From positions 7,035 to 46,475 of the forward strand of contig PHEX01000009.1 of the NCBI GenBank assembly GCA_002843005.1: 39,441 nt of DNA, given 5' to 3'. The notes beneath the pieces were generated by a model. The model was not told where the DNA came from. It did no database searches and was given only the letters and a program-made list of their open reading frames with translations. A program made the translations under genes and the position numbers. This DNA is from Candidatus Anoxymicrobium japonicum. Lineage in GTDB: Bacteria > Actinomycetota > Geothermincolia > Fen-727 > Anoxymicrobiaceae. Shown here in pieces: positions 11,651-38,550 of the stretch (its first letter is position 1; every line of letters starts with the position of its first letter).

Positions 11651-11661
11651 CGCAGTAAAAC

Positions 11662-14124: not shown

Positions 14125-14128
14125 GAAC

Positions 14129-15145: not shown

Positions 15146-15179
15146 TGCCACCGTCTCCGCGCGCGTCAGTACAACCAAC

Positions 15180-15207: not shown

Positions 15208-15246
15208 ATCCTGGGGTTGCTCAATTTTCCAATAAGGAGAGAGTCG

Positions 15247-16311: not shown

Positions 16312-16322
16312 GGAGAGGAAAC

Positions 16323-16778
16323 ATGATTGACGGCGTCGTGATCAAGCAGTTGAAGGTCATCCCCGACGAGCGCGGGCGCCTGACGGAGATGCTCCGCAGC
16401 GACGACGAGGTTTTCGAGAGATTCGGGCAGGCGTACGTGACCACGACTTACCCGGGTGTCATCAAGGCGTGGCACATGCACCACAGGCAGAACGACAACG
16501 TGGTATGCGTGCGCGGGATGATCAAGCTCGGGCTCTACGATGGACGGGTGAGTTCGCCGACGCGCGGCGAGGTGCAGGAGATCTTCCTTGGCGAGCACCG
16601 GCCTGTGCTCGTGCATATTCCCAAAGAGGTATATCACGGCTGGAAGTGCGTGAGCGAAAACGAGGCGTTTATCGTAAACATGTCTACCGAACTCTACGAC
16701 TACGACGACCCGGATGAGCAAAGGCTTCCGTACGACACGGATCAGATACCGTACGACTGGTCTGTCAAGCACGGCTGA
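16323..16778 (+). CDS. rfbC: dTDP-4-dehydrorhamnose 3,5-epimerase-like cupin protein
   Basis: A small RmlC-like beta-barrel protein (151 residues, shorter than the usual 180 or so). It carries the conserved start DERGRLTEMLR, the catalytic-type histidine region WHMHHRQNDN (RmlC-like WHxHxxQ), and VHIPKEVYHGWKC. It lies between rfbA and rfbB and probably epimerises a dTDP-4-keto-6-deoxyglucose intermediate. Because it is short and I cannot check the second catalytic Tyr, it could be a different sugar epimerase or isomerase of the same superfamily. The GGGAGAGGAAAC ribosome-binding region and 11-nt gap after rfbA indicate co-translation. Confidence 0.75.
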   Translation: MIDGVVIKQLKVIPDERGRLTEMLRSDDEVFERFGQAYVTTTYPGVIKAWHMHHRQNDNVVCVRGMIKLGLYDGRVSSPTRGEVQEIFLGEHRPVLVHIPKEVYHGWKCVSENEAFIVNMSTELYDYDDPDEQRLPYDTDQIPYDWSVKHG

Positions 16779-16798
16779 CCCCGGGCGAACGCGACGAG

Positions 16799-17773
16799 GT
16801 GAAGCAGTTGAGAATTTTAGTGACGGGCGGGTGCGGTTTTATTGGCTCGAACTTTATACGCTATATGTTCGAGACCCATGACGGCATCGCAATAACCAAC
16901 CTGGACAAGCTCACTTACGCGGGCAACCAGGAGAACTTGAGGGATATCGAGGACGCATGCGACTACACGTTCGTCAAAGGCGACATATGCGACGAGGTCC
17001 TCGTGGATCAGCTTATCTCCGAGGGGTACGATGCGGTGATCAACTTCGCGGCCGAGAGCCACGTCGACCGCTCTATTACGGATCCGGCGCAGTTTATCAA
17101 GACCGACATTTTTGGGGCGTTCACCTTGCTGGAGGCGTGCCGCCGCAGGCACGTGCGCCGTTATCTCCAGGTATCGACCGACGAGGTTTACGGCTCGATC
17201 GAGGACGGCTCCTTCACCGAGCAATCGAACCTGGCTCCGAACAGCCCGTACTCCGCGAGCAAGGCGGGGGCGGACCTGCTCGTGCGGGCCTATCACAAAA
17301 CGTACGGGATGCCCGTGCTGATCACGCGCTCCAGCAACAACTTTGGACCGTATCAGTACCCTGAGAAGCTCATCCCGCTGTTCATAACGAACGCCATCGA
17401 CGACATCGGATTGCCGCTTTACGGTGACGGGCAGAATGTGCGGGACTGGCTTTTTGTGACGGACAACTGCGCGGGGATAGACCTCGTGCTTCGGAAAGGC
17501 GAGCCGGGTGAGGTGTATAACATAGGCGGCGGACAGGAAAGAACCAACATTGAAATAACCAGAAGCGTTCTCTCCGCGCTCGGAAAGCCCGAATCGCTTA
17601 TTCATTACGTGGACGACCGCCCCGGCCACGACCGCCGTTACTCGCTTGATTTCAAAAAGGCGGCCGCCCTGGGTTATAGTCCGCGCTCGGACTTCGGTGC
17701 AATGCTCGAGGAAACCGCGCGTTGGTACGTCGATAACCGGCCCTGGTGGGCGTCCCTGAAGCCACAGAAGTAA
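16799..17773 (+). CDS. rfbB: dTDP-glucose 4,6-dehydratase
   Basis: An extended short-chain dehydrogenase (324 residues) that converts dTDP-glucose into dTDP-4-keto-6-deoxyglucose using bound NAD. It shows the Rossmann motif TGGCGFIGSNF, the family segment NFAAESHVDRSI, the catalytic STDEVYG (Thr, Asp, Glu) and YSASK (Tyr, Lys). RSSNNFGPYQYPEKLIPLF and NVRDWLFVTDNC are diagnostic of RmlB. The start is either GTG 16799 or, with the better-spaced GAGGTG ribosome-binding site, TTG 16808. It is the last gene of the rfbACB operon, which ends at the terminator at 17772. No rmlD reductase is present here, so the pathway to dTDP-L-rhamnose is incomplete in the window. Confidence 0.92.
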   Translation: MKQLRILVTGGCGFIGSNFIRYMFETHDGIAITNLDKLTYAGNQENLRDIEDACDYTFVKGDICDEVLVDQLISEGYDAVINFAAESHVDRSITDPAQFIKTDIFGAFTLLEACRRRHVRRYLQVSTDEVYGSIEDGSFTEQSNLAPNSPYSASKAGADLLVRAYHKTYGMPVLITRSSNNFGPYQYPEKLIPLFITNAIDDIGLPLYGDGQNVRDWLFVTDNCAGIDLVLRKGEPGEVYNIGGGQERTNIEITRSVLSALGKPESLIHYVDDRPGHDRRYSLDFKKAAALGYSPRSDFGAMLEETARWYVDNRPWWASLKPQK

Positions 17774-17814
17774 AAAACGCAACACCGGGGCCTGACCCCA
17801 TTGTTGCGTTTTTT
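17772..17814. terminator. Intrinsic terminator with GGGGCCTGACCCC core
   Basis: AAAAAACGCAACA (17772-17784) pairs perfectly over 13 bp with TGTTGCGTTTTTT (17802-17814); the loop is 17 nt. The stem overlaps the end of the rfbB stop codon and closes that operon. It is closely related to the two palindromes at 6955 and 7025. Confidence 0.8.
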
Positions 17815-17827
17815 GCAAAGCGTCAAG

Positions 17828-17856
17828 TTGGATCCGCTGTATTCCGATTCTATAAG
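17828..17856 (+). promoter_or_regulatory. Putative promoter of the beta-propeller gene
   Basis: TTGGAT (17828-17833) and TATAAG (17851-17856) are spaced by 17 nt. They precede the AAAAGGTGA ribosome-binding site at 17884-17892. Confidence 0.5.
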
Positions 17857-17897
17857 CGTAGGCGTGTGCGCTGACACAGATAGAAAAGGTGATTGGA

Positions 17898-20645
17898 TTG
17901 TTGACTTGTGGTAAGAAATTCATGGCGTGGACGCTCGCTCTGGCGCTGGCGTCGTTGATGACAGTAATTCCTGGAGCGCCCGCGGCGGAAATGGACAGGC
18001 CGATAAAAGCTCAAGTTGACGTGCAGTCAGCTTTCAATGACGCCAAGTTGAGCGTGGCCGACATCGATGGTGACGGCCAGGACGAGATACTGGCCGGGAA
18101 CATGAACGGCCATCTGTACTGTTTCACGGCGAAGGGGCAGGTCAAGTGGGCTTTCCATGCCGGGGCGTCAATCCGCGGTGGCGCGGCGTGCTATGACGTT
18201 GACGGCGATAAGAAGAAGGAAATCTTCTTTGGCGACATGGCCGGTCGCGTCTGGGGCCTCAACTCGAGCGGCGGCGTGCTCTCACAGTGGGGATGGCCCA
18301 AGCAGACGCCGAATACAGGCGGCTTTGTCAGTGTCTATTGCACACCCGCGATTGGCGACGTCAACGGGGACGGGGCACCCGATATTGTTGTTGGCGCCTA
18401 TGGACATTACGTTTACGCGTGGAGCTATTCAGGCGGCCTGCTTCCCGGCTGGCCGTACGATACCAAGGACACGATATGGTCCTCGCCGGCGCTGGCGGAT
18501 ATTGACCGCGACGGCCTGAAGGAAATCATCATTGGCGGCGACTGCACGGGCGGCAGCGGCTGGCCTTACCCGTCCGGCGGGCTCCTGTGGGTATTCAACG
18601 GGGACGGCAGCGTACAGCCGGGCTTCCCAAAATGCACACCGGAAGTCATCTGGTCCTCGCCAGCGTGCGCGGATATCGACAACGATGGATATTACGAAAT
18701 AGTCGTGGGCACGGGACACTACTACACAGCCATGGGCAGGCTTTCGAGTGAAGGTTTCCGGGTGTACGCCTGGAATCACGATGGCTCGGATTGCGCGGGT
18801 TTTCCGGTAGCGACGCTCGGCTGCACGATGTCGTCACCCGCGATAGGCGACATAGATGGTGACGGCATAAAGGAGATCGCTATCGCCTCGTATCCGGTGG
18901 CCGGCAAGGGCACCGACAGCATCATGCTGATCAAGGGCAACGGACAGAAGATGTGGGAAATAGCGGGGCTCCCCGGCCCTAACAGGGCATCCCCGGCGCT
19001 TGGTGACGTCAACGGTGATGGCAACTCCGAGGTCATCATAGGTTCCGGCTCGGAGATGTTCGCCTGGGACGCCCGGGGCAATCGCGTCTGGCATCATCCG
19101 GATACGGATAAATATCCTACGATGTCGGGCCTGGACAGCATGGTCATCACGAGCCCCGTGGTCGGAGATTTCGACCGCGATGGGCGCATAGAGGTCGCGC
19201 TCGGCACCGGCGGGGAATCGGGCGGAGGTAGTTTCTACGTGTTTGATTGCGGTCCGAAAAAGAGCGGGGCCACGGGCGATCTGCTGTGGCCGCAGTTTCG
19301 GAAAAACGCGGAGCACACAGGGAACATACCGACCGGCAACGAGCCACCACCACCGCCGCCACCGCCACCGCCGGCGAATTTTCACGAGTACATCTTGCTC
19401 ATGAACCCAGGAAGCGTGGCCGCGAACGCGACTGTCGAGCTCATGAACGAGAAGGGCGAGAAGAAATCCGTCAGGATGAAGGTTGCCGCATCTTCACGCG
19501 CGACCGCTATGATCAACCGTTCTATGTCGGGGTGTGGCGTGAGCGCGCGCGTGATCTCGGATGCGCCGGTCATCGCTGAGCGCGCTATGTACTTCAACTT
19601 CCAGAACAAGTGGAAAGGCGGGACAGACTCGGCTGGCGCGACGGCGCCGTCGAAGACGTGGTACCTGGCGGAAGGTTACACGGCGGACAACTTCGACGAG
19701 TACGTGCTGGTTCAGAACCCGCAAAAAAACACGGTTACCGTCAATATGGCTTTCATGCGCGAGAAGAACACACCTGTCTATGCGTCCTTCAGCGTCCAGC
19801 CGGAAAGCCGGTTCACACTTAACGTGAAAGACGTTCCCGGTCTCATGGGAGCTTCCGTGTCCACAATGGTCAACGCGACAGGTGACGTCATCTGTGAGCG
19901 TTCAATGTACTTTGATTACAACGGGTTTGTGGGAGGTCACAACGCGATGGGTGTCACCGCTCCCCAACTCAACTGGTATCTCGCTGAGGGCTACACCGCG
20001 CAGAGTTACGACACTTACGTGCTCGTGCAAAACCCGGGGACGAAACCGGCGAACGTTACGGCGACAATGCTTCGGAAAGATGGCTTCACGCGCGAGATGT
20101 CTTTCGCGATTCCCGCTCAGAGCCGTAAGACCATCATAGTGGATGAGGTTCCGGGCTTTGAGGCCGCGGAGGTTTCCACTCAGATTACGTCGAACGTCGG
20201 GGTTATCGCCGAGCGCGCTATGTACTTCAACGCGGATGGACGTACGGGAGGACACGACGCGGCTGGCGTGAGCGAGCCCGCAAAAACGTGGTACCTGGCC
20301 GAGGGGTTCACCGGCGGGTCTTTCGACGAGTACGTTCTCATCATGAACCCGGGCGACGCCGCCGCAGTCGTCAAGACCACTTTTATGCCCGCCAAAGGGA
20401 GTCCAACGTCCAGGATGGACGCCTTGAAGCCTCACTCACGGTTCACTATCCACGTGGACGAGCAGCCCGGCCTTGATAACGCTGAGGTCTCGACGTGTGT
20501 CGAGGTTCAAGGCGCGGGCCAGGTTATCGCGGAGCGGGCAATGTATTTCGTGTACAACGGGGTCTGGTCGGACGGGCACGACGCCGCAGGCGTAAAAGAA
20601 GCGTCGAAGGAGTGGTACTTCGCCGAAGGTTACACCGGAATGTAA
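17898..20645 (+). CDS. Secreted FG-GAP/VCBS beta-propeller with four C-terminal modules
   Basis: An exported protein of about 915 residues. The signal peptide (WTLALALASLMTVIPGAPAA) is followed by a beta-propeller with eight Ca-binding loops of the type DxDxDGxxE (for example DIDGDGQDEIL, DVNGDGAPDIV, DIDRDGLKEII, DIDNDGYYEIV and DFDRDGRIEVA). Each probably marks one blade. Ten consecutive prolines link the propeller to four envelope modules that begin NFHEYILLMNP and end WYFAEGYTGM at the stop. The propeller is probably a binding or adhesion platform; no catalytic residues were recognised. Candidate starts are GTG 17889 and TTG 17898 or 17901. The TTGs fit the ribosome-binding site better. 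It has its own promoter and is followed by repeat sequence. Confidence 0.82.
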   Translation: MLTCGKKFMAWTLALALASLMTVIPGAPAAEMDRPIKAQVDVQSAFNDAKLSVADIDGDGQDEILAGNMNGHLYCFTAKGQVKWAFHAGASIRGGAACYDVDGDKKKEIFFGDMAGRVWGLNSSGGVLSQWGWPKQTPNTGGFVSVYCTPAIGDVNGDGAPDIVVGAYGHYVYAWSYSGGLLPGWPYDTKDTIWSSPALADIDRDGLKEIIIGGDCTGGSGWPYPSGGLLWVFNGDGSVQPGFPKCTPEVIWSSPACADIDNDGYYEIVVGTGHYYTAMGRLSSEGFRVYAWNHDGSDCAGFPVATLGCTMSSPAIGDIDGDGIKEIAIASYPVAGKGTDSIMLIKGNGQKMWEIAGLPGPNRASPALGDVNGDGNSEVIIGSGSEMFAWDARGNRVWHHPDTDKYPTMSGLDSMVITSPVVGDFDRDGRIEVALGTGGESGGGSFYVFDCGPKKSGATGDLLWPQFRKNAEHTGNIPTGNEPPPPPPPPPPANFHEYILLMNPGSVAANATVELMNEKGEKKSVRMKVAASSRATAMINRSMSGCGVSARVISDAPVIAERAMYFNFQNKWKGGTDSAGATAPSKTWYLAEGYTADNFDEYVLVQNPQKNTVTVNMAFMREKNTPVYASFSVQPESRFTLNVKDVPGLMGASVSTMVNATGDVICERSMYFDYNGFVGGHNAMGVTAPQLNWYLAEGYTAQSYDTYVLVQNPGTKPANVTATMLRKDGFTREMSFAIPAQSRKTIIVDEVPGFEAAEVSTQITSNVGVIAERAMYFNADGRTGGHDAAGVSEPAKTWYLAEGFTGGSFDEYVLIMNPGDAAAVVKTTFMPAKGSPTSRMDALKPHSRFTIHVDEQPGLDNAEVSTCVEVQGAGQVIAERAMYFVYNGVWSDGHDAAGVKEASKEWYFAEGYTGM

Positions 20646-24362: not shown

Positions 24363-25247
24363 ATGAACGACTTGCCCGAGCGCGGTGACTGTGGAAGCAG
24401 GGTCGAACGCCGGCGTGAAAGATCTCTAAAGAAAGCCCAAAGAAGGCGCGCCACGGCGATCGCCTTCTCGGTTTCCTTGATACTGATCGTCCTGCTGGGC
24501 GCCGGTGGTTGGGTCATCTACCGGAGGGCGAGCGCTCGTCGCGGTCCGACGCCAAGGACGTACGCGGTTACATTGCCCGAGGGTCTGAACGCCACGGAGA
24601 CGGGAGAGAGGTTTGAGGAAGCGACAAACGGTTCTATAAAAGCGGCGGAGTTCTCGCGAGCACTGAAAGCCGGCGGTTATGACTACAGCTTTCTTAAAGG
24701 GACGAAGGGCAATCTGGAGGGCTTTCTCTTTCCCAACACTTACCAGGTGACTTCAACGACCACCGCGCGCGAGACGGTGGACAAACTGCTTTGTGATTTC
24801 AAGAAAGAGACCGACGACCTCGAGTGGAACCGCGCGGCAGAACTCGGGGTCACGCCTTATCAGATCGTGATAATCGCCTCGTTAATCGAGAAAGAGGTCA
24901 AGTTGTCCACGGAGCGGCCGCTTGTGGCGTCGGTGATTTATAACAGGCTCAAGAAGAACATGAAACTGGGGATGTGCTCGACCGTGCTCTACGCGCTCGG
25001 CCAGTGGAAGCCGAAGCTCACCAACAAAGATATCGAGGTGGACTCCCCGTACAACACTTATAAAATAAACGGTCTCCCGCCGGGTCCGATATGCAATCCC
25101 GGCTTCGAGTCTATCCGCGCGTCGTTGTTCCCCGCGACGACAGATTACTTATACTTTATCCTGACCGGCCCTGAAGGCAGTCACAGCTTCACGAGCGATT
25201 ACAGGCAATTCGACATCTGGAAAAACGAGCAAAACAAAAAGCAATAG
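24363..25247 (+). CDS. mltG: Endolytic murein transglycosylase MltG
   Basis: Inner-membrane lytic transglycosylase that cuts nascent glycan strands and sets their length. A basic, cytoplasmic N-terminus of about 30 residues precedes a single transmembrane helix (IAFSVSLILIVLLGAGGWVI). The YceG domain follows, with GNLEGFLFPNTY, ASLIEKEV (catalytic Glu at about residue 176), ASVIYNRL and SPYNTYKINGLPPGPICNPG. At 294 residues it is shorter than E. coli MltG, mainly in the LysM-like N-domain. It is followed directly by an intergenic palindrome whose first bases overlap the TAG stop. Confidence 0.93.
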   Translation: MNDLPERGDCGSRVERRRERSLKKAQRRRATAIAFSVSLILIVLLGAGGWVIYRRASARRGPTPRTYAVTLPEGLNATETGERFEEATNGSIKAAEFSRALKAGGYDYSFLKGTKGNLEGFLFPNTYQVTSTTTARETVDKLLCDFKKETDDLEWNRAAELGVTPYQIVIIASLIEKEVKLSTERPLVASVIYNRLKKNMKLGMCSTVLYALGQWKPKLTNKDIEVDSPYNTYKINGLPPGPICNPGFESIRASLFPATTDYLYFILTGPEGSHSFTSDYRQFDIWKNEQNKKQ

Positions 25248-25320
25248 GGGTCTGGCAACGTCTACCGCTTTAGCGGTAGACGGTGCCTGACCCCTGCCTT
25301 GGTAGCGGTAGACGGTGCTC
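25246..25320. repeat. GGTGCCTGACCCC-family palindrome plus partial copy
   Basis: AGGGGTCTGGCAACGTCT ... GCGGTAGACGG ... GGTGCCTGACCCCT (25246-25295) is followed by a partial copy, GGTAGCGGTAGACGGTGCTC (25301-25320). The left arm has TCTGGCAACG where the perfect copy at 34112 has TCAGGCACCG, so this copy has three arm mismatches. It overlaps the mltG stop and separates the housekeeping block from the hydrogenase-like operon. Confidence 0.85.
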
Positions 25321-25348: not shown

Positions 25349-25837
25349 GTGGTGAAGGTTGAAGGCGCAAAACATGAGCCTGAGCTCAAGGCGCTGATGC
25401 GCATGGTGTTTATCTTGGATGTCACGATTGATGGCGTATTAGGCAAAGGTGCTCATGCCATGATGTACCAGTCGGGGCGCGATACTGGCCGCGTCCAGGG
25501 GCGCCTGGCCGCGCGAACAGAGGATTTTGACACGGCTTTGCGGTCTGTGCTTGCCGAAGGCGAAGGCGTATGGCGGTTCGAGTATTGGAAAGATCCCGGT
25601 CAGCAGGATCACTGGATACACGGCGGCGACAGGAGCTCCGCGTGGCTGGTATTCAGGAGTTGTCCGCTCCAAAGGCTCACTCGCGCTGTTGGAACAAAAC
25701 CTGGCGGATTGCTTTGTCACGCTTTTCACGGCTACATGATCGGTTGTATGGAAATGGCGCTCGGCCGGCGGGTAGACATGAAGATTGGCCATTGCGGACC
25801 GCGGGCGTGCAAGGTGCAAGTGGAGATGAGGAAGTGA
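25349..25837 (+). CDS. V4R-like small-molecule-binding protein
   Basis: A protein of about 162 residues whose C-terminal third (LLCHAFHGYMIGCMEMALG, then GHCGPRACKVQVEM) resembles the end of V4R domains, which bind small molecules or metal through conserved Cys residues. No membrane segment or DNA-binding domain is apparent. The longest reading frame would start at 25283 inside the palindromic repeat. I prefer GTG 25349 because ACGGAGA (25336-25342) is well placed and the upstream codons only translate repeat sequence. Its stop overlaps the ATG of the hydrogenase-like small subunit by 1 nt, so it is almost certainly co-translated with it. A role as a ligand sensor or accessory for that complex is inference. 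Confidence 0.55.
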   Translation: MVKVEGAKHEPELKALMRMVFILDVTIDGVLGKGAHAMMYQSGRDTGRVQGRLAARTEDFDTALRSVLAEGEGVWRFEYWKDPGQQDHWIHGGDRSSAWLVFRSCPLQRLTRAVGTKPGGLLCHAFHGYMIGCMEMALGRRVDMKIGHCGPRACKVQVEMRK

Positions 25838-26691
25838 TGTATGTCGCGACAGTTGCTCTGAGCGCGTGTGGTGGATGCGAGAACGCGCTGCTCTCGATAG
25901 GTGAACCTCTAATAGCGCTCTTGAGCGAGCATGCCATCTCGTTCTCGAGCTTGCTGGTGGACAGGCGGTCGATCTCTCCGTCGGACGTTGTGCTCGTGAG
26001 CGGTTGCATAAGCAATGACGAGGAACGCGCAATCGCGTCCGAGATCGCTCACATCAGCAGAAAGATAATCGCTGTCGGTTCCTGCGCGGTTTACGGTGGG
26101 CTGTTTGGCTCGCGGAAAATTATTGACAACAGTTGCGACGACGCTCTCGATGCGATTTTGCCACGTGTTTTTGAGCACGTCGAGCCTCTGGATTCGAGAG
26201 TGGATGTCGAGCTGTACGTCCCTGGATGCCCACCCCCGCCGGACCTCATCTTTGAGGCTTTGAAGTCCGCGCTCGAGGGGCATGCCCCACCGCATCTGAA
26301 CAGCACGGTTTGCTCCGATTGCACACGCCGTGTGGCGCGCAAGTCGGCAAAAGCCTTTCAACTCCACCCGGGTCCGGGAGTCCCCGAGAGCGTGTGCATC
26401 CTGAACTCGGGAGTGCTCTGTATGGGTCCCGTGACACGAGGAGGCTGTCGCGCCGCGTGTCCACAGGTGGCCGCGGCGTGTCTGGGTTGCAGGGGACCCG
26501 CGGACGCCGTTCTTTCGTCGCAGTTGCACTCGGTGCGCTCTGACTTGATTACTTATATCGCGCGCACCACAGGATCGCGCGAGGAGAAGGTCGCCCGACA
26601 GATTGAACCGATGCGGCAAGCGCTTTACATGTTCACAGGCTCAGACCCGGTGACAAAAGCGAAAGTCAAGGAGATGGCGCCAGATGACTGA
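25837..26691 (+). CDS. [NiFe]-hydrogenase-like small subunit (MvhG/group 3-type)
   Basis: An iron-sulfur subunit of 284 residues that would pass electrons to or from the NiFe site. Proximal-cluster ligands are visible as C11 and C14 (SACGGCEN), C83 (VGSCAVYGG) and C131 (VPGCPPPPD). The C-terminal half carries eight further Cys (CSDC; CILNSGVLCMGPVTRGGC; CPQVAAACLGC) in the order typical of group 3 (MvhG/HoxY-like) small subunits, so two more clusters are likely. No Tat signal is present, so it is cytoplasmic. The reading frame is open upstream inside the V4R gene; ATG 25837 gives the standard N-terminus and has AGGAAG nearby. It overlaps the large-subunit start by 8 nt. No HdrA, MvhD, F420- or NAD-binding subunit is present. 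Confidence 0.88.
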   Translation: MYVATVALSACGGCENALLSIGEPLIALLSEHAISFSSLLVDRRSISPSDVVLVSGCISNDEERAIASEIAHISRKIIAVGSCAVYGGLFGSRKIIDNSCDDALDAILPRVFEHVEPLDSRVDVELYVPGCPPPPDLIFEALKSALEGHAPPHLNSTVCSDCTRRVARKSAKAFQLHPGPGVPESVCILNSGVLCMGPVTRGGCRAACPQVAAACLGCRGPADAVLSSQLHSVRSDLITYIARTTGSREEKVARQIEPMRQALYMFTGSDPVTKAKVKEMAPDD

Positions 26692-28036
26692 TCGGAAAGA
26701 ATCCGCGTTGGGGGAGAAAATTCGTTTGTACCCGGTTACGCGCATACAGGGGCGCGCCGACATCGAGATACTTTTTACCCCGCAACAGGTGGTCGCCGAG
26801 GCGCGTTTCAGGGCGCTCGAGACGCGGGGCATCGAGCGTATGGTCGTCGGAAAGCCCGCTCTCCGCGTGCCGCAAATCCTTGCCAGGACGTGCGGCGCCT
26901 GTGGCCCTTTCCATCAGCTCGCATCCGCTATGGCGATCGAGTCCGCGTGTGGCGTGGAGGTGCCCGAAGATGCCACGTCACACAGGGAAACGCTTTGCTG
27001 GCTATTCCTTGCCGCTACTCAGATAAAGACCATGATTTTTCAGATTCTTCCCGACTTCGCTCTTCCGATGTCGGATGCGGCGGTCAAGAACATCACCGGC
27101 ATATACATGGTAGATCAGGAGTCTGTGAGCAGGCTCTCTTCTGTGCTTGTTTCTATCGATAAGGCGCTCGAGGAGCTCAGCCGCAACCGATTTCACCCGG
27201 GAGCGATTGTCGTAGGCGGTGTTTCCGGGTTGCCTGACCAGGCGGCGGTTGACAGGGCGTTAGAGCTTTTGGATGGATGTGCCGACAATCTCCACGAGAG
27301 TATGCGCCTGGCGGAGATGCTGACAAGGCGTGAGTCGAAGATGGTGAAGAGTGACGTCTCGCTCGAGGGCTTTTACATGACGACGACCGACGCCGGCCGG
27401 CCCGCCATTCTCGGCAATGAGATCACGTGCGCACCGTTCGCTGGTGGCGAAGAATCCACTATGGAGTTTAAGGAGTTCCTGGCGTCGATTGAGGAACGAC
27501 CCGTTCCGTGGTTCTATCTTAAACCGCTTGCCGTAACTGGATTTGAGCCTTGTATGGTCGGTTCGCTTGCCAGGGTGAACGTTGGTTTCGGTCCGGATAC
27601 GCCAGTAGCGGAACTCGAGTGTGATCGCGTGCTCGAGCAGTGGGGGCATCCACTGGACAGAGAGCATTTCCTTTTGGCAGCTCTCGCGCTCGAGGCGATA
27701 TGGGGATGGGAGAAAGCCAAAAATCTGCTGGCGGAAGGAGCGGCGGATGCCCGCGAAGCGTGTGCAGGAGCGCGGCTATCCGCGTCAAATGGTTTCGCGG
27801 TTCTTGACTCGCCCGGTGGAGTTCTTGCCCACGCGGTCTCCCTGGGCTCCGACGGGGCTGTGAGTTCCTACAAGATCATGAGTCCATTGCAGTTCAACGG
27901 CATCTTGATGAACAGTTACCTCTCGAGAGTCGCGGGTGAAACGGTGATGGGAATTGAAGTGAGCGACGCCGCCGCGTCAAGGCTTGCGCGCGCTGTCAGG
28001 TCTTTCAATCCATGCGTGCCATGTGGAACGCACTGA
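26684..28036 (+). CDS. Divergent [NiFe]-hydrogenase-like large subunit, lacking conserved outer-shell residues
   Basis: A catalytic-type subunit of 450 residues. The four NiFe Cys ligands are present: C70 and C73 (RTCGACGPFHQL) and C444 and C447 (NPCVPCGTH). Several residues that surround the metal in canonical enzymes differ. The usual PVTRIEGH reads PVTRIQGR (Q22), the Arg of the PRG loop appears as Gly (SPGG, G379), and the Asp of DPCxxC is Asn (N442). The HALHF-like segment reads KTMIFQIL. The protein ends exactly at H450, where canonical precursors are cut by a maturation protease, so no C-terminal peptide would need removal. It is co-translated with the small subunit. It may be a sensory or low-activity hydrogenase, or an enzyme with another substrate. 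The alignment was made by eye. Confidence 0.87.
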   Translation: MTDRKESALGEKIRLYPVTRIQGRADIEILFTPQQVVAEARFRALETRGIERMVVGKPALRVPQILARTCGACGPFHQLASAMAIESACGVEVPEDATSHRETLCWLFLAATQIKTMIFQILPDFALPMSDAAVKNITGIYMVDQESVSRLSSVLVSIDKALEELSRNRFHPGAIVVGGVSGLPDQAAVDRALELLDGCADNLHESMRLAEMLTRRESKMVKSDVSLEGFYMTTTDAGRPAILGNEITCAPFAGGEESTMEFKEFLASIEERPVPWFYLKPLAVTGFEPCMVGSLARVNVGFGPDTPVAELECDRVLEQWGHPLDREHFLLAALALEAIWGWEKAKNLLAEGAADAREACAGARLSASNGFAVLDSPGGVLAHAVSLGSDGAVSSYKIMSPLQFNGILMNSYLSRVAGETVMGIEVSDAAASRLARAVRSFNPCVPCGTH

Positions 28037-28060: not shown

Positions 28061-28330
28061 GTGCTGGAAATAATAATCGATAAGGAGCGTTGTGTGGCCT
28101 GCGGGGATTGCGCGAGCATGTGCCCGCAAAGCGGCCCGGCAGTGGAGTTTCCAGTGCTTGAAGCAGTCGCTGGAGGTGAGGTTTTCATAAAGCGCGCTGA
28201 AGCGTGCATCGCGTGTTTCACGTGCGTCGAGTTCTGTCGGTCCGCGGCTATCACGATCGTTGGCGCTGATCCTGGCGGCGAAGAACAGCCTCCCATCTAC
28301 CCGAGCAGGCTCGTAACCCGTATAATTTAA
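28061..28330 (+). CDS. 2[4Fe-4S] ferredoxin-type protein
   Basis: A protein of 89 residues with two complete CxxCxxCxxxC motifs, CVACGDCASMC (N-terminal) and CIACFTCVEFC (central). Each is expected to bind one [4Fe-4S] cluster. The sequence after the second motif is hydrophilic, with no membrane helix. It follows the large-subunit gene by 24 nt and is probably the electron donor or acceptor of the hydrogenase-like pair. The start is GTG 28061, with AGAAGG somewhat far upstream. Its stop codon lies inside the left arm of the nested palindrome at 28327. Confidence 0.85.
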   Translation: MLEIIIDKERCVACGDCASMCPQSGPAVEFPVLEAVAGGEVFIKRAEACIACFTCVEFCRSAAITIVGADPGGEEQPPIYPSRLVTRII

Positions 28331-28472
28331 CTTTCGGGTCAGGTCTTTTTTTAAAGTTTAAGAGGGGTCTGGCAACGTCTACTGGCAACGTCTACCGCTT
28401 TAGCGGTAGACGGTGCCTGACCCCTCTGGACGAGCGATCGACTTAAGAAAAAAGACCTGACCCGAAAGTTAA
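28327..28472. repeat. Nested palindromes: 25-bp outer arms enclosing a GGTGCCTGACCCC-family element
   Basis: The outer arms, TTAACTTTCGGGTCAGGTC plus a T-run (28327-28351) and their exact reverse complement (28448-28472), are 25 bp and perfect. Between them lies an element at 28362-28427 (GAGGGGTCTGGC ... GCGGTAGACGG ... GGTGCCTGACCCCTC) with an internal duplication of TGGCAACGTCTAC. The outer arms also contain GGGTCAGG / CCTGACCC, so two related palindromes are nested. The structure separates the ferredoxin gene from the Roadblock cluster and may fold into one large hairpin. Confidence 0.85.
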
Positions 28473-28548: not shown

Positions 28549-28911
28549 ATGCGCGAAGAACAGATGATAGAGACACTCAAAAAGTTGAGATCTGACAGTG
28601 ATAGTGTGCAGGCAGTGGCGCTCATAAGTTCCGATGCGATGCCGCTTGCGTCTGACATGCCGGATGGCATGACCGAGGAGCTTCTCAGCGCCACGGCTTC
28701 TTCGCTGATTGCGTCGGGGGAAAAGGTTGCCGGTGAGCTTTTGAGAGGCGACGTCGAGCAGGTTTATCTTCGGGGAAGCTTTGGCGATCTGGTCGTTGTC
28801 AAGGTGAACGATGACGTTATTCTTGCGTGCGCCGTTGATAACCAAGCGAAGATGGGCATGACTCTTCTCGATGTCAATCGTTGCGCGCAAAAGCTCGCCG
28901 GGATTATTTGA
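28549..28911 (+). CDS. Roadblock/LC7 domain protein (first of two)
   Basis: A single-domain protein of 120 residues. The central strand pattern (VQAVALISSDAMPLAS ... VYLRGSFGDLVVVKVNDDVILACAV) is that of Roadblock/LC7 (MglB-type) proteins, which bind small GTPases and often act as activators (family knowledge). The ribosome-binding site is CAGGAGG upstream of ATG 28549. It is the first gene of a block that continues with a second Roadblock protein, a DUF4388-type scaffold and a GTPase. The two Roadblock proteins are clearly diverged and may form a heterodimer (inference). Confidence 0.8.
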   Translation: MREEQMIETLKKLRSDSDSVQAVALISSDAMPLASDMPDGMTEELLSATASSLIASGEKVAGELLRGDVEQVYLRGSFGDLVVVKVNDDVILACAVDNQAKMGMTLLDVNRCAQKLAGII

Positions 28912-28975: not shown

Positions 28976-29374
28976 ATGGATAGTATTCAACAGAACGAAC
29001 TTGAGGAAACGCTCAAGGGGCTTTTGGAAAAGACAAAGGATATCGATGCGGCCGCGGTTGTGAGCATGGATGGGTTCGTGATGGCGTCGATCCTTCCTGA
29101 GAGCTACGAGGAAGATCGCCTTGGAGCTATGTCGGCGGCGCTCTTGAGCCTCGGGGAGAGAACCGCCCATGAGTTTGGGCGTGGAGAGCTGGCACAGGTT
29201 TTTGTGGAAGGCGCCGATGGATATGTGTTCCTGTTGGCCGCCGGTGAGGACGCGGTGTTGAATGCTGTTGTCAAGCGTGGAAGCAAACTCGGGCTTGTCC
29301 TGTACGATATCAAGAACACGGCAAAGGCAATCGCCGCCATCATCGAATCACATCTCCAGGTTGAATACGAATAA
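28976..29374 (+). CDS. Roadblock/LC7 domain protein (second of two)
   Basis: A protein of 132 residues with the Roadblock/LC7 fold signature: DAAAVVSMDGFVMAS, a helix carrying GERTAHEFGRGELAQVFVEG, and YVFLLAAGEDAVLNAV. It is closer to MglB-type proteins than is its upstream neighbour. The start is ATG 28976, preceded by AAGAGG. It lies 64 nt after the first Roadblock gene and 39 nt before the DUF4388-type gene, so it is part of the same operon. A GAP or scaffold role for the GTPase at 32609 is inferred from related clusters. Confidence 0.82.
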   Translation: MDSIQQNELEETLKGLLEKTKDIDAAAVVSMDGFVMASILPESYEEDRLGAMSAALLSLGERTAHEFGRGELAQVFVEGADGYVFLLAAGEDAVLNAVVKRGSKLGLVLYDIKNTAKAIAAIIESHLQVEYE

Positions 29375-29398: not shown

Positions 29399-32455
<3,057 letters not shown>

Positions 32456-32462: not shown

Positions 32463-32589
32463 AGGGGTCAGGCAACGTCTACCGCGCAGCGGTAGACGGT
32501 GCCTGACCCCTGGTTGCGGTAGACGCAGCGGTAGACGGTGCCTGACCCCTGGTTGCGGTAGACGCAGCGGTAGACGGTGCCTGACCCCT
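32463..32589. repeat. Palindromic element followed by two perfect 39-nt tandem copies
   Basis: A full palindrome (32463-32511) is followed by two identical 39-nt units, 32512-32550 and 32551-32589. Each unit runs from GGTTGCGGTAGACGCAGC to GGTGCCTGACCCCT. The block lies between two genes of the same predicted operon, and its end is only about 7 nt from the GTPase ribosome-binding site. Perfect identity of the units suggests a recent duplication. Confidence 0.9.
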
Positions 32590-32608
32590 GACGCTCAGGA
32601 GGGATTAC

Positions 32609-33151
32609 TTGGATAGAGTCTACAAGATAGTGGTGACTGGCCCGTTCAACTCCGGGAAGACTACTTTTATAAATGCGATAAGCGAGATTGAAGTGGTTTC
32701 CACCGAGAGAAAAATGGGGCGGGGAAGCGAAAAATGCGACACCACCGTCGCGATGGACTTTGGTCGCATCACATTTCCTGACGGGTACTCTCTCCACCTT
32801 TATGGAACGCCGGGTCAGGCGCGCTTCGACTTCATGTGGGAGATACTCTCCGAGGGAATGCTTGGCTACGTGGTTCTGGTTGATGGCAGCAAGCCGTCAT
32901 CGTTTGGTGAGGTGGACGGCATAGTCAGGGCTTTTGCGGGCATGTCGGATAAGCCGTGCGTAGTGGGGCTCACGAGGTCGGACCACAAGGATTGCTTTTC
33001 AGCGGACGAGATAAGAAATAATATTGATTGTCTTCAAGACAAGGATATCGTTGGATGTGACGCGAGGAAGTTGACTGACGTCAAGGAAGTTCTACTGGCC
33101 TTGCTCGAGAAAGTGATGGCTAGGGCGGAGGCTCTGGAACAGACAGGTTGA
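32609..33151 (+). CDS. Small Ras-like GTPase (MglA/CvnD-like)
   Basis: A GTPase of 180 residues. The P-loop is GPFNSGKTT (residues 11-19), and switch II reads YGTPGQARF with GTPGQ at 66-70 in place of the classical DxxGQ. The G4 motif is TRSD (122-125) rather than NKxD, as seen in prokaryotic CvnD/COG2229-type GTPases. Together with two Roadblock proteins and a DUF4388 protein it resembles a conservon or MglAB module that controls polarity or motility in other bacteria. The start is TTG 32609 with AGGAGGG (32597-32603). Only the repeat block separates it from the DUF4388 gene. The pilus genes begin 1 kb downstream. Confidence 0.85.
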   Translation: MDRVYKIVVTGPFNSGKTTFINAISEIEVVSTERKMGRGSEKCDTTVAMDFGRITFPDGYSLHLYGTPGQARFDFMWEILSEGMLGYVVLVDGSKPSSFGEVDGIVRAFAGMSDKPCVVGLTRSDHKDCFSADEIRNNIDCLQDKDIVGCDARKLTDVKEVLLALLEKVMARAEALEQTG

Positions 33152-33194: not shown

Positions 33195-33245
33195 TGGCGT
33201 GTCTTGCATGAGTGACGCCTCGGGCGTTTGAGGAACGGGATTCTA

Positions 33246-34109
33246 ATGCGCATAAATGGTAGTACGCGTTTGGTAGGAATCATAGGGAACCCGCTGGAAC
33301 ATTCGCTTTCACCGGCTATCCATAACGCGGCATTTGATTATCTTGGCCTGAACTGGTGTTACGTGCCGATGCTCGTCGAGGAGGGGAACCTGGCCTTGGC
33401 GATCCATGGAATGAAAGCGATCTCCTTTGCCGGGGCTAACGTAACCATGCCCTTTAAGATCATGGTGCTTGGCTTGCTGGACGAAGTTGCCGTGTTTGCG
33501 GAGTCGGTAGGCGCGGTGAATACGATTCTCGCGGACAAGGGCAAGTTCATGGGCTACAACACGGATGGGCGCGGCTTTTACACCGCGCTGGCGCGGGATC
33601 TGGAATATGACGTCAAAGGCCGCAAGATCCTGGTGCTTGGCGCCGGTGGCGCGTCGCGCAGCGTCACCGTTTCGCTGGCGCTGGCGGGTTGCTCTTCCAT
33701 CGCCATTGTCGACCAATTGCCCGACAGGAGCAGGCAGCTTGTGGAGATAATCCGCTCGAGTACGCCCGACGTCGACGTCACGTGGCTGTCTCCCGACGAC
33801 AACCACGACATTGTTGTGGCCGAGTCCGACGTAATAATAAACGCGACGCCGCGCACGATCTCCAGCGAGTCATTGCGTGTGCCGCCGTCTTTGTTGAATA
33901 AGAACAAACTGGTCTGCGATCTCAATTATTCACTGTCCCAGCCGCCGCTGCTTCAGGAGGCGGCCTCGCGCGGGGCGCGGGTCATGGACGGGAAGGGTAT
34001 GTTGCTTTACCAGGCCGCCGCCTCCTTCGAGATATGGACGGGGCTGGAAGCTCCGGTGGAAGTCATGAGAGTTGCGCTCCTGCGCGCGCTGGAAGAGACG
34101 CACAGTTAG
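33246..34109 (+). CDS. aroE: Shikimate dehydrogenase
   Basis: NADPH-dependent reduction of 3-dehydroshikimate in aromatic amino-acid synthesis. The protein of 287 residues has the substrate site SLSPAIHNAAF and NVTMPFK (catalytic Lys), NTDGRGF (catalytic Asp), the NADP loop LGAGGASRSV, and the C-terminal DLNYS ... DGKGMLLYQAAASFEIWTG pattern. ATG 33246 is preferred over the in-frame TTG 33228 because GAGGAACGGGA lies just upstream. In related genomes aroE often lies close to mltG; here an 8-kb block with the hydrogenase-like operon and GTPase cluster lies between them. A perfect palindrome directly follows its stop. Confidence 0.93.
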   Translation: MRINGSTRLVGIIGNPLEHSLSPAIHNAAFDYLGLNWCYVPMLVEEGNLALAIHGMKAISFAGANVTMPFKIMVLGLLDEVAVFAESVGAVNTILADKGKFMGYNTDGRGFYTALARDLEYDVKGRKILVLGAGGASRSVTVSLALAGCSSIAIVDQLPDRSRQLVEIIRSSTPDVDVTWLSPDDNHDIVVAESDVIINATPRTISSESLRVPPSLLNKNKLVCDLNYSLSQPPLLQEAASRGARVMDGKGMLLYQAAASFEIWTGLEAPVEVMRVALLRALEETHS

Positions 34110-34111: not shown

Positions 34112-34159
34112 GGGGTCAGGCACCGTCTACCGCTTTAGCGGTAGACGGTGCCTGACCCC
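34112..34159. repeat. Perfect 48-nt palindrome, best copy of the GGTGCCTGACCCC family
   Basis: Two 23-bp arms, GGGGTCAGGCACCGTCTACC onward (34112-34134) and their exact reverse complement (34137-34159), are separated by TT. This is the least diverged member in the window and gives the family consensus. It lies between the aroE stop and the pilB ribosome-binding site. Confidence 0.95.
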
Positions 34160-34179
34160 TCGACCAAGGAAGACACAGA

Positions 34180-35868
34180 ATGGAGAAGCCGAAGCAAGAC
34201 CGCCTGGGGCGGCTCATGCTCGAAAACAATCTGATAAGTGAGGATCAGCTTGAAGAGGCTCTCCAGGAGCACTCGAGCACCGGCAAGTCACTTGGTCGTG
34301 TGCTCATAGAGAAAGGCGTTCTCACCGAAGGGCAGCTTACGTCAGTTCTCGCGGAGCAAATAGGCATCCGGTACGTCGACCTTTCCAACTACATCGTCGA
34401 TCCTTCCGTTGCCGCGCTCATAGACGCGAATTTCGCGCGAAGGCACATACTTATTCCGATCGACTACGACAGCGACAAGCTCGTGGTGGCGATGGCGGAT
34501 CCAACCAACGTGTTCGCTCTCGATGATCTGCGTATCATGACGGGCAGGGCGATCGCGCCGGTTGTGGCGACCAAGAAGGACATTGAAGAGGCGATAGGAA
34601 GGTACCTGCACTCCGACATGGCCGCCCAGGAGGAGCTTGAAGATTTCTCTCTCGACGAAGAGAACGTGATCGAGGAGGTGGAGGATCTCAAGGAGATGGG
34701 GGAGGAGGCTCCTATCGTAAAGTACGTCAACCTCATAATCAGTGAGGCTGTTGTTGACGGCGCAAGCGACGTTCATGTCGAGCCGGGGGAGAAAGACATA
34801 CGCATCCGTTATCGCATAGACGGCGTGCTTCGCGAGATCCGGCGATCCCCGCGGCGCATTCACCCCGGCATAGTCTCGAGGTTAAAGATCCTTGGTAGCA
34901 TGGACATATCCGAGAGGCGGATTCCGCAGGACGGCCGATTCGCGCTCGAGATAGAAGGCAAGCACATTGACCTTCGCGTGGCTTCCGTGCCAACAGTCCA
35001 CGGAGAGAAGATGGTCCTCCGGATACTCGACAGCACCTCGCTCTTGATGAACCTCTCACAGTTGGGCATCTCTCCTGATCTGTTGAAGCGGTTCACGGAG
35101 TCTTTTACGAAGCCGTACGGCACCGTGATCGTCACTGGGCCTACCGGCTCCGGGAAGACGACAACGTTGTACGCGGCTCTCTCCGAACTGAACAAGCGTG
35201 AAGTTAACATCATCACGGTAGAGGATCCGGTCGAGTACCGGCTCCACGGAACGAACCAGGTGCAGGTCAACACCAGGGTGGGCCTCACGTTTGGCACGAC
35301 CTTGAGGTCAATTTTGAGATGCGACCCCGACGTTATCATGATCGGTGAGATCCGAGACAGCGAGTCGGCCAAGATAGCTATCGAATCAGCGCTGACCGGT
35401 CACATGGTGCTGTGCACGCTTCACACAAACGACGCGCCTTCGGCTATAACCAGAATGACGGAGATGGGGGTCGAGCCGTTTCTTATTGCGTCGGCTGTGG
35501 ACAGTGTCGTGAGCCAGAGGCTTGCCCGAAGGTTATGCGTTCACTGCAGGGAAGAGACGACATACGACGCTGAGTACCTCGAGAAGATAGGCTTTCCTGT
35601 TGGTGACGAGAACAAGATTACAGTATTTAAGGCCGATCCCGGTGGATGCTTCTACTGTAATAACACCGGCTTTCGTGGGAGGATAGGAATCTACGAGGTG
35701 CTGGGGGTTGATGAGGAAATAGAAAAACTGGTTGTCAACATGTCGACCGCGCGTGAAATCGGAACGCTGGCCAGGGAGCATGGAATGGTCACTTTGCGCG
35801 GAGATGGTTTCAGCAAGGTCGCGCAAGGTATAACCTCTATAGAAGAGGTTCTTCGAGTCGTTATGTAG
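34180..35868 (+). CDS. pilB: Type IV pilus assembly ATPase
   Basis: Hexameric extension motor of the type IV pilus (562 residues). The N-terminus contains two 24-residue MshEN-type motifs (8-31 and 37-60) with exactly a 5-residue spacer, an arrangement known to bind c-di-GMP in related motors. The Q at the end of the first motif is H here. Next come the N2 domain and the ATPase core: Walker A GPTGSGKTTT, Asp box EDPVEYR, Walker B CDPDVIMIGEIRD, His box LHTNDAPSA, and a zinc tetracysteine (CVHC ... CFYC). ATG 34180 has AAGGAAG upstream. pilT begins 16 nt after the stop. Confidence 0.93.
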   Translation: MEKPKQDRLGRLMLENNLISEDQLEEALQEHSSTGKSLGRVLIEKGVLTEGQLTSVLAEQIGIRYVDLSNYIVDPSVAALIDANFARRHILIPIDYDSDKLVVAMADPTNVFALDDLRIMTGRAIAPVVATKKDIEEAIGRYLHSDMAAQEELEDFSLDEENVIEEVEDLKEMGEEAPIVKYVNLIISEAVVDGASDVHVEPGEKDIRIRYRIDGVLREIRRSPRRIHPGIVSRLKILGSMDISERRIPQDGRFALEIEGKHIDLRVASVPTVHGEKMVLRILDSTSLLMNLSQLGISPDLLKRFTESFTKPYGTVIVTGPTGSGKTTTLYAALSELNKREVNIITVEDPVEYRLHGTNQVQVNTRVGLTFGTTLRSILRCDPDVIMIGEIRDSESAKIAIESALTGHMVLCTLHTNDAPSAITRMTEMGVEPFLIASAVDSVVSQRLARRLCVHCREETTYDAEYLEKIGFPVGDENKITVFKADPGGCFYCNNTGFRGRIGIYEVLGVDEEIEKLVVNMSTAREIGTLAREHGMVTLRGDGFSKVAQGITSIEEVLRVVM

Positions 35869-35884: not shown

Positions 35885-36961
35885 GTGGCACAGCAAGGAT
35901 CAAGACTCGACATAAACGAGATGCTCAAGGAAGTGATAAACCGCGGGGCTTCTGACCTGCATATCACGGTAGGTATCCCGCCTGTGTTGCGCATCAATGG
36001 CGTCCTGCAGCGGATGGATCAGCAAAAGCTCACGAGCGCCGACACCCGTGATATGGTTTACAGCATTCTCACGGCCCGCCAGCGGGAAACGCTGGAAACC
36101 AACCTGGAGTTCGACCTGTCGTACTCCGTGCCGGGCAGCGCCCGTTTTCGCGTAAACGCGTACTTTCAGAGGAACAGTGTCGGCGCGGCTTTCCGTATTA
36201 TTCCATATCGCATCAAGTCGCTCGACGAGCTCATGCTTCCGCTGGTGGTCAAAGAGTTCGCGCGGCTTCCCAGGGGTTTTGTCCTGGTGACCGGGCCGAC
36301 CGGCCAGGGCAAGTCGACCACGCTTGCCGCGATCATCGACCTCATCAATTCGACCCGTGAAGAGCACATAATCACGATCGAAGACCCTATCGAGTTTCTT
36401 CATTTGCACAAGAAGTGCATGGTCAACCAGCGCGAAGTCGGCTCGGACACACATTCGTTCGCAAGCGCCTTGAAGTATGCTTTGAGGCAGGATCCCGACA
36501 TCATACTCGTCGGCGAGATGAGAGACCTCGAGACCATACAAACCGCGCTGACCGCCGCCGAGACCGGCCACCTGGTCTTTGCGACGCTTCATACGCAGGA
36601 CGCCCCCCAGAGCATCGACCGTATAATCGACGTCTTTCCGACTTTTCAGCAGGCGCAGGTCAGGCTCCAGTTGGCCTCGACGCTACGGGCTATCGTGACG
36701 CAGCAACTGGTTCCCACAAAGGACAGGCGGTCCAGGGTTCCCGCGGTCGAGATTATGATAGCGACCTCCGCTATCCGCAACATGATCAGAGACGCGAGGA
36801 TTCACCAGATTTACTCGGCCATGCAGTCGGGCGGCCAGCTCCGGATGCAAACCATGGACGCCTCGCTCGCGGAGCTTTACCGCGCGGGCCAGACAACTTA
36901 TGAAACCGGGCTTGCGAGAGCCCACAACAGAGATGACTTCAGGCGCCTCGTCGGCCGGTAA
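35885..36961 (+). CDS. pilT: Type IV pilus retraction ATPase
   Basis: Retraction motor that depolymerises the pilus for twitching motility and DNA uptake (358 residues). It has the N-terminal ASDLHITVGIPPVLRING, Walker A GPTGQGKST, the Asp box EDPIEF, Walker B DPDIILVGEMRD, the His box LHTQDAPQSIDRI, and the PilT-specific C-terminal AIRNMIRD segment. GTG start with GGAGG at 35873-35877. It is co-transcribed with pilB. The 205-base gap to pilC contains a palindrome and a likely separate promoter. Confidence 0.94.
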   Translation: MAQQGSRLDINEMLKEVINRGASDLHITVGIPPVLRINGVLQRMDQQKLTSADTRDMVYSILTARQRETLETNLEFDLSYSVPGSARFRVNAYFQRNSVGAAFRIIPYRIKSLDELMLPLVVKEFARLPRGFVLVTGPTGQGKSTTLAAIIDLINSTREEHIITIEDPIEFLHLHKKCMVNQREVGSDTHSFASALKYALRQDPDIILVGEMRDLETIQTALTAAETGHLVFATLHTQDAPQSIDRIIDVFPTFQQAQVRLQLASTLRAIVTQQLVPTKDRRSRVPAVEIMIATSAIRNMIRDARIHQIYSAMQSGGQLRMQTMDASLAELYRAGQTTYETGLARAHNRDDFRRLVGR

Positions 36962-37166: not shown

Positions 37167-38384
37167 GTGGCCACAGAGTTCACATATACAGTCAGAGACC
37201 GTACGGGCCGCGAGATATCAGGGTCACTGGAGGCCGAGAACTCGGAAGTTCTATCTGGAAAGCTTCGCCAGATGGGGTACGTCATTGTCAGCATCGAAGA
37301 AGTCAAAGTGTCGATGGGCAAGAAAGAGATTTACATCTTCGGCGCAAAGGCGAAGCAGGAGGATGTGAACATATTTACCCGGCAGTTCGCGACCATGATC
37401 AATGCCGGGCTTCCCCTGATCAAGTGCCTGAGCATCCTGGCCCGGCAGACGGAGTCCAGCGTGCTTGCCGACATCATCACCGATTGCCAGAAAGAGGTGG
37501 AAGGTGGGCGATCCCTGTCCGAGGCCCTCTCGAAGCATCCCCAGGCGTTCAGCAATCTGTACGTGGCGATGGTGCGCGCCGGCGAGATGGGCGGCATGCT
37601 CGATGACGTTCTTTTGCGTATTGCCGAGCAGCTCGAGCGTGAGTTCGAGATCCACCGCAAGGTAAAATCGGCGATGACGTACCCAATAGCTATCATGGCG
37701 CTGTCATCGCTTTTGCTGGGGATAATGATCATCTTTGTGGTGCCAAAGTTCGCGGCGATGTTCGAGACGCTGGGCGGCAGCCTGCCGGCCATGACCCAGA
37801 TGCTTGTCAACTTTAGCCACTTCGTCGCCGGCCCTGGCGGCCTCGTTATTGTTGCCGTCATAGTCGGATTGGTTATCGCGTTCAGGCGGATCAAGATGAC
37901 CAAGAAGGGGCGCTACGCGATCGACAGCTTCAAGTTGAAAATGCCGTATGTCGGCACTCTCTTTCATAAAACGGCGATGTCCAAGTTCTCGAGGAGCCTC
38001 GGGGCGCTGATCTCTTCCGGGGTGCCGATCCTGGGCGCTCTCGAGATAACAGGTGAAACTACGGGCAACATGGCCGTCACAAGGGCTCTTGATCACGTGC
38101 GCGAGAGTGTCAAAGAGGGAGAGACAATCGCCAGGCCGTTGGATGAGTCCGGCGTCTTTCCTCCGATGGTGACACAGATGATTGCCATTGGAGAAGAGAC
38201 GGGAGCGCTGGACGTAATGCTCTTGAAGATCAGCCAGTTTTACGACAGCGAGGTGAACGCCGGAGTAGACAGCCTTACCGCGACGCTCGAGCCACTGTTG
38301 ATGATGTTCCTCGGCGGATCGGTCGGTTTCATCGTAATCGCGCTCTATCTGCCGATCTTCAAAGTCATCACCATGATCAAGTAA
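37167..38384 (+). CDS. pilC: Type IV pilus inner-membrane platform protein
   Basis: Polytopic T2SF-family protein of 405 residues on which the PilB/PilT motors act. Two T2SF domains are visible. The first starts at about residue 65 (FTRQFATMINAGLPLIKCL) and the second at about 270 (KFSRSLGALISSGVPILGALEI). Three membrane helices are evident: IAIMALSSLLLGIMIIFVV, GGLVIVAVIVGLVIAF and the C-terminal GSVGFIVIALYLPIF. The family signature GEETGALDVMLLKI is present. GTG start with GGGAGG (37152-37157). Confidence 0.93.
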   Translation: MATEFTYTVRDRTGREISGSLEAENSEVLSGKLRQMGYVIVSIEEVKVSMGKKEIYIFGAKAKQEDVNIFTRQFATMINAGLPLIKCLSILARQTESSVLADIITDCQKEVEGGRSLSEALSKHPQAFSNLYVAMVRAGEMGGMLDDVLLRIAEQLEREFEIHRKVKSAMTYPIAIMALSSLLLGIMIIFVVPKFAAMFETLGGSLPAMTQMLVNFSHFVAGPGGLVIVAVIVGLVIAFRRIKMTKKGRYAIDSFKLKMPYVGTLFHKTAMSKFSRSLGALISSGVPILGALEITGETTGNMAVTRALDHVRESVKEGETIARPLDESGVFPPMVTQMIAIGEETGALDVMLLKISQFYDSEVNAGVDSLTATLEPLLMMFLGGSVGFIVIALYLPIFKVITMIK

Positions 38385-38446: not shown

Positions 38447-38550
38447 TCACAGGCCTGCTAAAGTTTTTGGCAATGCATGCCGAAACACCGAGTTGAAGGA
38501 AGGAAAAGGAAGGAAAAAGTAGTTGAAGAGCATGAAGGGAGGTGAAAGAA

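Follow-up and report, generated by a model that had tools for sequence, protein, structure and literature searches.

A degenerate [NiFe]-hydrogenase-like large subunit in a signaling and pilus locus of Candidatus Geothermincolia

Gene content and order at the locus

The window, by which we mean the whole stretch of 39,441 nt analyzed here, comes from Candidatus Anoxymicrobium japonicum (contig PHEX01000009.1, positions 7,035 to 46,475). It carries genes in the order AlaS-RuvX-MltG-V4R-HydS-HydL-Fd-roadblock(s)-DUF4388-Ras-like GTPase-AroE-PilB, where HydL denotes a degenerate hydrogenase-like large subunit and Fd a ferredoxin. This order is constant in 18 neighborhoods from the same bacterial class, as far as the contigs reach, and is repeated at named loci from the same or further genomes.

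The HydL gene occupies positions 26684 to 28036 on the forward strand, as do all genes described here from V4R through the PilT-like gene at their own positions. It is preceded by HydS (25837 to 26691), an MvhG/VhuG-like small subunit that matches PF01058 (E 4.5e-23) and, with a score under the curated cut-off, the VhuG model (E 1.7e-36). Twelve HydS cysteines are invariant across 16 sequences, a set that would be enough for three [4Fe-4S] clusters, and the proximal cysteines C11, C14, C83, and C131 are all among the invariant residues, CxxC pair included. The HydS start codon overlaps the stop codon of the V4R gene (TGATG), the HydL start overlaps the HydS stop (ATGA), and HydL is translationally coupled to HydS. 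Directly after HydL, here and across the class, lies a gene for a 2x[4Fe-4S] ferredoxin (28061 to 28330) with eight cysteines (CVACGDCASMCP, CIACFTCVEFCR) and a Pfam Fer4 match at E about 1e-8.

The gene upstream of HydS (25349 to 25837, with a presumed start inside an open reading frame that begins at 25283) encodes what we call the V4R-fold protein. By itself this protein matches no Pfam family, and a sequence search of the PDB returned chance matches only. Among its homologs, PF02830 (V4R) is the most frequent weak match (5/16, best E 0.016). Foldseek places its AlphaFold model (pLDDT 81.5) closest to phenol-sensor domains, those of PoxR, MopR, and DmpR (TM 0.55-0.61, E about 1e-4), and gives H-NOX and MJ1460 as weaker matches. 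The protein is likely to bind a small molecule or Zn, and the invariant residues C105, C123, H127, H148, and C154 (alignment numbering) could fit a putative metal site.

Downstream of the ferredoxin gene are two roadblock/LC7 proteins (28549 to 28911, PF03259 E 4.5e-12; 28976 to 29374, PF03259 E 2e-18) and a protein with a PatA-type N-terminal DUF4388 domain and a long acidic tail (29414 to 32455, PF14332 E 9.3e-37). Next comes a small Ras-like GTPase of the MglA/CvnD type (32609 to 33151; PF03029, PF00071), which carries the G-P-loop GPFNSGKTT and a TPGQ motif and is present in 28 of 31 class genomes. The constant downstream flank begins with a gene that we take from its sequence and family to be AroE, shikimate dehydrogenase (33228 to 34109). 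Pfam searches of the pilus genes (PF00437, PF00482, and PF07963 across the group) identified PilB-like (34180 to 35868) and PilT-like (35885 to 36961) type IV pilus ATPases, followed by a PilC-like gene (37167 to 38384) and a pilin-like gene (38542 to 38931). The conserved locus contains no metabolic genes, its neighbors being signaling and pilus genes, and it holds neither an HdrA/MvhD partner nor membrane subunits; no conservon CvnA or CvnC was identified there.

Two of the genomes without the block keep surrounding genes. One from the same family as the window (G003) has the same flanks but none of V4R, HydS, HydL, Fd, or roadblock 1; MltG and roadblock 2 are separated there by 708 bp. In another (G018), MltG, DUF4388, GTPase, AroE, and PilB are present without the block. 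Thus, the V4R-HydS-HydL-Fd block comes and goes as one unit within a locus older than itself, and roadblock 1 is missing along with it in one genome only (G003). A lateral gene cassette was considered and rejected because the position is fixed and the clade is restricted to the class.

Two other features of the window were noted. A palindromic repeat of ~49 bp (ggggtctggcaacgtctaccgctttagcggtagacggtgcctgacccc) occurs at 25247-25313, about 28365-28425, about 32464-32590, and about 34112-34160; genome-wide it yields 109 BLAST pieces on both strands in roughly 45 places and resembles REP/MITE elements. Farther upstream, positions 5166 to 20645 encode at least five large proteins (FG-GAP, amidase, NlpC/P60 with SLH, and SpoIID types) that have in common a C-terminal DUF5719 module, possibly a cell-surface or sorting domain.

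The large subunit and its clade

The first-pass annotation described an otherwise intact gene, and the open reading frame is indeed real and uninterrupted, encoding 450 amino acids that end at H450. HydL matches PF00374 (E 1.3e-17), and the curated models that come closest, VhuA and sulfhydrogenase alpha, give scores far under their cut-offs. Searches of the PDB with phmmer and with a profile aligned it end to end with the group-3c enzymes 7t2r, 5odc, and 9sw2; profile E values reached down to 1e-91 (4.5e-91 to MvhA). Its AlphaFold model (mean pLDDT 88.9) superimposes over the whole length on 5odc_F (TM 0.90, rmsd 2.3), with TM values of 0.90 and 0.89 against group 3c and HydL structures. HydL is a full-length [NiFe]-hydrogenase-fold large subunit of the MvhA/HydL type.

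Active-site motifs were compared with those of MvhA (5odc, 9sw2) and the HydL of 7t2r. In phmmer, profile, and MAFFT alignments alike, the motif blocks are free of gaps. Both NiFe-ligating CxxC motifs are present: CGACGPFH stands against CGICxxxH in the references, retaining C70 and C73, and NPCVPCGTH stands against DPCLSCxTH, retaining C444 and C447. All four cysteine ligands are therefore where they had been placed by eye. The proton-transfer Glu (RIEGH), the pendant Arg of PRG, and the canopy Asp of DPC are each missing from their aligned columns. Q22 replaces Glu in PVTRIQGR (references PVTRIEGH), and N442 replaces Asp in the C-terminal block, both as originally proposed. The loss of Arg likewise stands (SPGGVLAH against APRGTLIH), with the correction that the replacing residue is G378; G379 corresponds to the Gly of PRG, which does not vary. 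D124, the second Asp of the canopy and the partner of the lost one, is present and invariant. C70 and C444, presumably the terminal nickel ligands by homology, are invariant in the clade.

Hydrogenase precursors are cleaved after a CGTH-type motif, and in most families the peptide is removed after maturation; H2 sensors are known exceptions to this rule. In HydL the stop codon directly follows CGTH, so that the C-terminal peptide is absent, and no member of the clade has one. Among comparison hydrogenases with full genes, 23 either possess the tail or are chains known in their mature form, apart from a small number of exceptions (L093, L106).

Homologs of HydL were found in 24 of 31 genomes of the class, which is recognized as Candidatus Geothermincolia because the named contigs that carry homologs belong to Actinomycetota metagenome-assembled genomes including Candidatus Solincola and Candidatus Geothermincola. 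In the scan of named contigs, a single-protein query gave no match and an alignment query recovered the homologs. In a tree of 49 rows, a branch with support of 100/99 separates the 22 complete clade members from the rest; they lie beside the group-3 enzymes and away from group-1-like ones. Across 247 genomes sampled from the phylum, E values for class members are at or below 1e-160, against 1e-102 for the highest-scoring outsider; the best outsiders inspected have Glu, Arg, and Asp, mostly with a tail. Among the genomes searched, the clade was found only in this one actinobacterial class.

Glu and Asp are absent from every clade relative that has those columns, where Q, M, P, N, S, G, Y, or F and N, S, L, G, or A are found instead, respectively. 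Because 26 of the 27 comparison hydrogenases in the tree retain the triad of Glu, Arg, and Asp, this loss is not a matter of chance. The Arg column behaves differently: Arg is kept, within an intact PRG, in all six relatives from the same family as the window protein, which itself has Gly; Ala occurs in L008 of the same order, and Glu or Gly in the rest of the class. The suggested test for close homologs with the same three changes thus finds two of them shared, and the Arg loss falls outside the shared signature. Cysteine ligands also vary, with C73 changed to Asp in all members of family f5 and C447 lost in L008.

Two long-branch members of the clade (L025 and L026, from G027 and G030) show further motif change, with AEG and a CFFCAS end, and to judge from these motifs represent a later stage of divergence. 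The sole comparison sequence without the triad, L093 (71-1741 on G033:C93), is a second, unrelated degenerate large subunit that lies next to group-1-like enzymes in the tree. It has RIKGQ for RIEGH (Lys for Glu) and PDG for PRG (Asp for Arg), keeps DPC, and lacks a C-terminal tail.

The HydL family is under purifying selection. Pairwise dN/dS is 0.09-0.25 for seven pairs from family f5, which is not the family of the window protein, as computed by the Nei-Gojobori method with our own script. On this basis a pseudogene reading was rejected. In one relative (L010/L065, G006:C316) HydL is split into two overlapping open reading frames by a frameshift or assembly error.

Maturation genes in HydL-bearing genomes

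Assembly of a NiFe(CN)2CO center by known routes involves Hyp proteins, and the class genomes were screened for HypD, the HypF zinc finger, HypE, and HypA. Five HydL-bearing genomes have neither HypD nor the HypF zinc finger, namely that of the window (G000) and G002, G015, G017, and G024, whose completeness is 99.6%, 95%, 99%, 97%, and 82%, respectively. These absences come from draft genomes, which are weaker evidence than finished ones, and five independent assemblies concur. The same five genomes have no canonical large subunit, and all 24 class genomes that do have one also have HypD. A search of G000 for [FeFe] hydrogenase (PF02906) found none.

No HypE match exceeds the cut-off in G000; sub-threshold matches occur there and in many control genomes alike and are uninformative beyond that cut-off. 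The only HypA match in G000 covers 78 residues with in-frame stops. At this place (L114, G000:C59 about 7040-7400), the first 78 hypA residues are joined to a HypB-like C-terminus, recognized by eye, in a different frame, an apparent deletion scar that could be an assembly artefact. Almost every other genome of the class has HypA, which may be needed there for other nickel enzymes. Its presence in most of the relatives that lack HypD means that nickel at the HydL site is possible outside G000.

Without these Hyp proteins, no Fe(CN)2CO can be made by known routes, and H2 chemistry is therefore excluded in at least five species. Given the shared residue losses, such chemistry would be very unlikely across the rest of the clade as well. 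HydL is thus very probably not a functional NiFe hydrogenase, and it is very unlikely to act as a hydrogenase or NiFe(CN)2CO protein of any kind. The initial suggestion of a sensor, an electron-transfer subunit, or an enzyme for a different substrate had leaned on the three altered residues, one of which is not shared. It is now strongly supported on other grounds, which are the Hyp-minus genomes, the lack of a maturation peptide throughout the clade, and purifying selection.

Candidate functions of the proposed HydSL complex

For a protein that may be a sensor, an electron-transfer subunit, or another enzyme, we favor, with slightly less than even confidence in the whole, a reading in which HydL is part of a repurposed electron-transfer or redox-sensing complex. 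It would derive from the large subunit of a group-3 [NiFe]-hydrogenase but have no NiFe(CN)2CO center and no capacity to handle H2. Together with HydS and its three predicted [4Fe-4S] clusters, the ferredoxin, and the V4R-fold protein, it would most likely form a soluble complex that takes electrons from the ferredoxin pool, or reports the redox state of this pool, at a rebuilt cysteine pocket. We infer complex formation, the redox role, and ligand binding by the V4R protein. Gene order suggests that HydSL probably signals to the roadblock/Ras-like GTPase module, and output from this module would most likely be directed to the type IV pili.

Retention of all four cysteines in the window protein might instead point to a [NiFe]-hydrogenase that withstands the changes and is either weakly active or a sensor of H2. 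Regulatory H2 sensors are also known to lack the C-terminal peptide. Moreover, altering the catalytic Glu of E. coli Hyd-1 leaves inactivation incomplete (PMC10430524), so the statement in the first-pass annotation that a Glu to Gln change blocks turnover in studied enzymes was too strong. However, five HydL genomes without HypD and HypF have no known route to Fe(CN)2CO, family f5 has Asp in place of C73 in all its members, L008 has no C447, and an Arg to Lys change alone costs Hyd-1 more than 100-fold (PMC5962704). This alternative is highly improbable. Even less credible is a decaying hydrogenase relic, which would account for the lost catalytic residues, the small genome with its broken hypA/hypB, the frameshift in the HydL gene of one relative (G006), and the absence of the block from several genomes. 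Frames are intact in nearly all members, dN/dS values are low, operon overlaps are conserved, and retention is class-wide, all of which speak against decay.

A structural scaffold for the neighboring signaling proteins, devoid of redox chemistry, would be consistent with a fold that is retained while the catalytic pocket varies between families, but we consider it improbable because 12 invariant HydS cysteines and a retained ferredoxin are hard to explain without electron transfer. HydSL could also be an oxidoreductase for another substrate, with ferredoxin electrons passing through HydS to a rebuilt site, which would be either a different metal or, as in the membrane-bound sulfane reductase MBS, the proximal cluster. 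The V4R protein would then bind or present a hydrophobic or aromatic substrate. The electron path is complete (12 cysteines of HydS plus 8 of the ferredoxin), the V4R fold is similar to aromatic-binding domains, and the block is gained or lost as one unit. A precedent exists in MBS, which retains only two of the four NiFe cysteines and whose proximal cluster is the site of polysulfide reduction (PMC7684303). Yet the three-Cys proximal cluster and shortened Cys loop of MBS are not seen here, and the conserved locus offers signaling and pilus neighbors in place of a metabolic gene. An MBS-like site was rejected because the HydS CxxC pair and all four proximal cysteines are invariant. An oxidoreductase is on balance rather unlikely.

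A redox- or ligand-sensing role is preferred because of the fixed neighbors, which are the V4R sensor-like protein, the roadblock proteins, the Ras-like GTPase, and the pilus motors. In Myxococcus, roadblock proteins and MglA-type GTPases control type IV pili (PMC9481161). Against this signaling role, the housekeeping order AlaS-RuvX-MltG-AroE-PilB may be kept for other reasons, and the GTPase and pilus genes also occur without the block (G003). Against a sensor as such, the four cysteines retained in this family and a full Fe-S wire fit an enzyme equally well. The more specific proposal, in which the NiFe-stripped heterodimer is the class-wide redox- or ligand-sensing input of a Ras-like GTPase/roadblock switch controlling type IV pili, is speculative and rather doubtful.

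Among the closest known systems are the group 3c enzymes MvhA/VhuA and the HydL of HydABCSL (5odc, 9sw2, 7t2r), which resemble HydL in full-length fold, four cysteines, and an MvhG-like small subunit. Unlike these, the window protein lacks the Glu, PRG Arg, Asp, and C-terminal peptide, its genome lacks HypD/E/F, and its locus lacks an HdrA/MvhD partner. The regulatory H2-sensing hydrogenases HupUV/HoxBC are also known to have no C-terminal peptide and are sensors made from a hydrogenase, but they keep the NiFe center, need Hyp proteins, and signal to a histidine kinase rather than to a roadblock/GTPase module. The MglA/MglB system and the actinobacterial conservon proteins CvnB/CvnD are similar in having roadblock proteins beside a small Ras-like GTPase, with pilus genes adjacent; in place of CvnA/CvnC, which were not identified, this locus has the hydrogenase-like block and the DUF4388 protein.

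Loss of NiFe from hydrogenase-fold subunits has precedents, most of them in the complex I lineage (NuoD, MBS). The 49-kDa subunit of complex I (NuoD/Nqo4) also re-uses the fold for electron transfer after NiFe loss, but it has lost all four cysteines, and HydL is a separate gene; weak NuoD-like matches, identified by position only, occur elsewhere in G000. MbsL/MbsJ of MBS likewise include a large subunit that works without a NiFe site and without H2 (PMC7684303). MBS belongs to the group-4/complex I lineage, is membrane-bound, and has two Cys lost and a three-Cys proximal cluster, whereas HydSL has no membrane arm, keeps the proximal CxxC, and belongs to a lineage sister to group 3.

What is new is a group-3-side, class-wide, Hyp-independent clade in a signaling/pilus locus. 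The open-access literature searched yielded no description of this clade and no paper linking a hydrogenase-like protein with roadblock/GTPase (MglA) modules; the combination of Geothermincolia and hydrogenase gave one match, a cultivation review. If the proposed GTPase input is real, it would be a use of the hydrogenase fold undescribed in that literature, and if the locus functions as a unit, it would tie the redox state of the cell to a Ras-like switch and pili. The clade is a separate case of NiFe loss in which more than one stage can be seen, with all four Cys present, with three Cys and an Asp, or with one terminal Cys missing, and its natural Hyp-minus genomes make the function of a hydrogenase scaffold without its metal center directly testable. 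These findings also call for caution before such genes are labeled hydrogenases in metagenomes.
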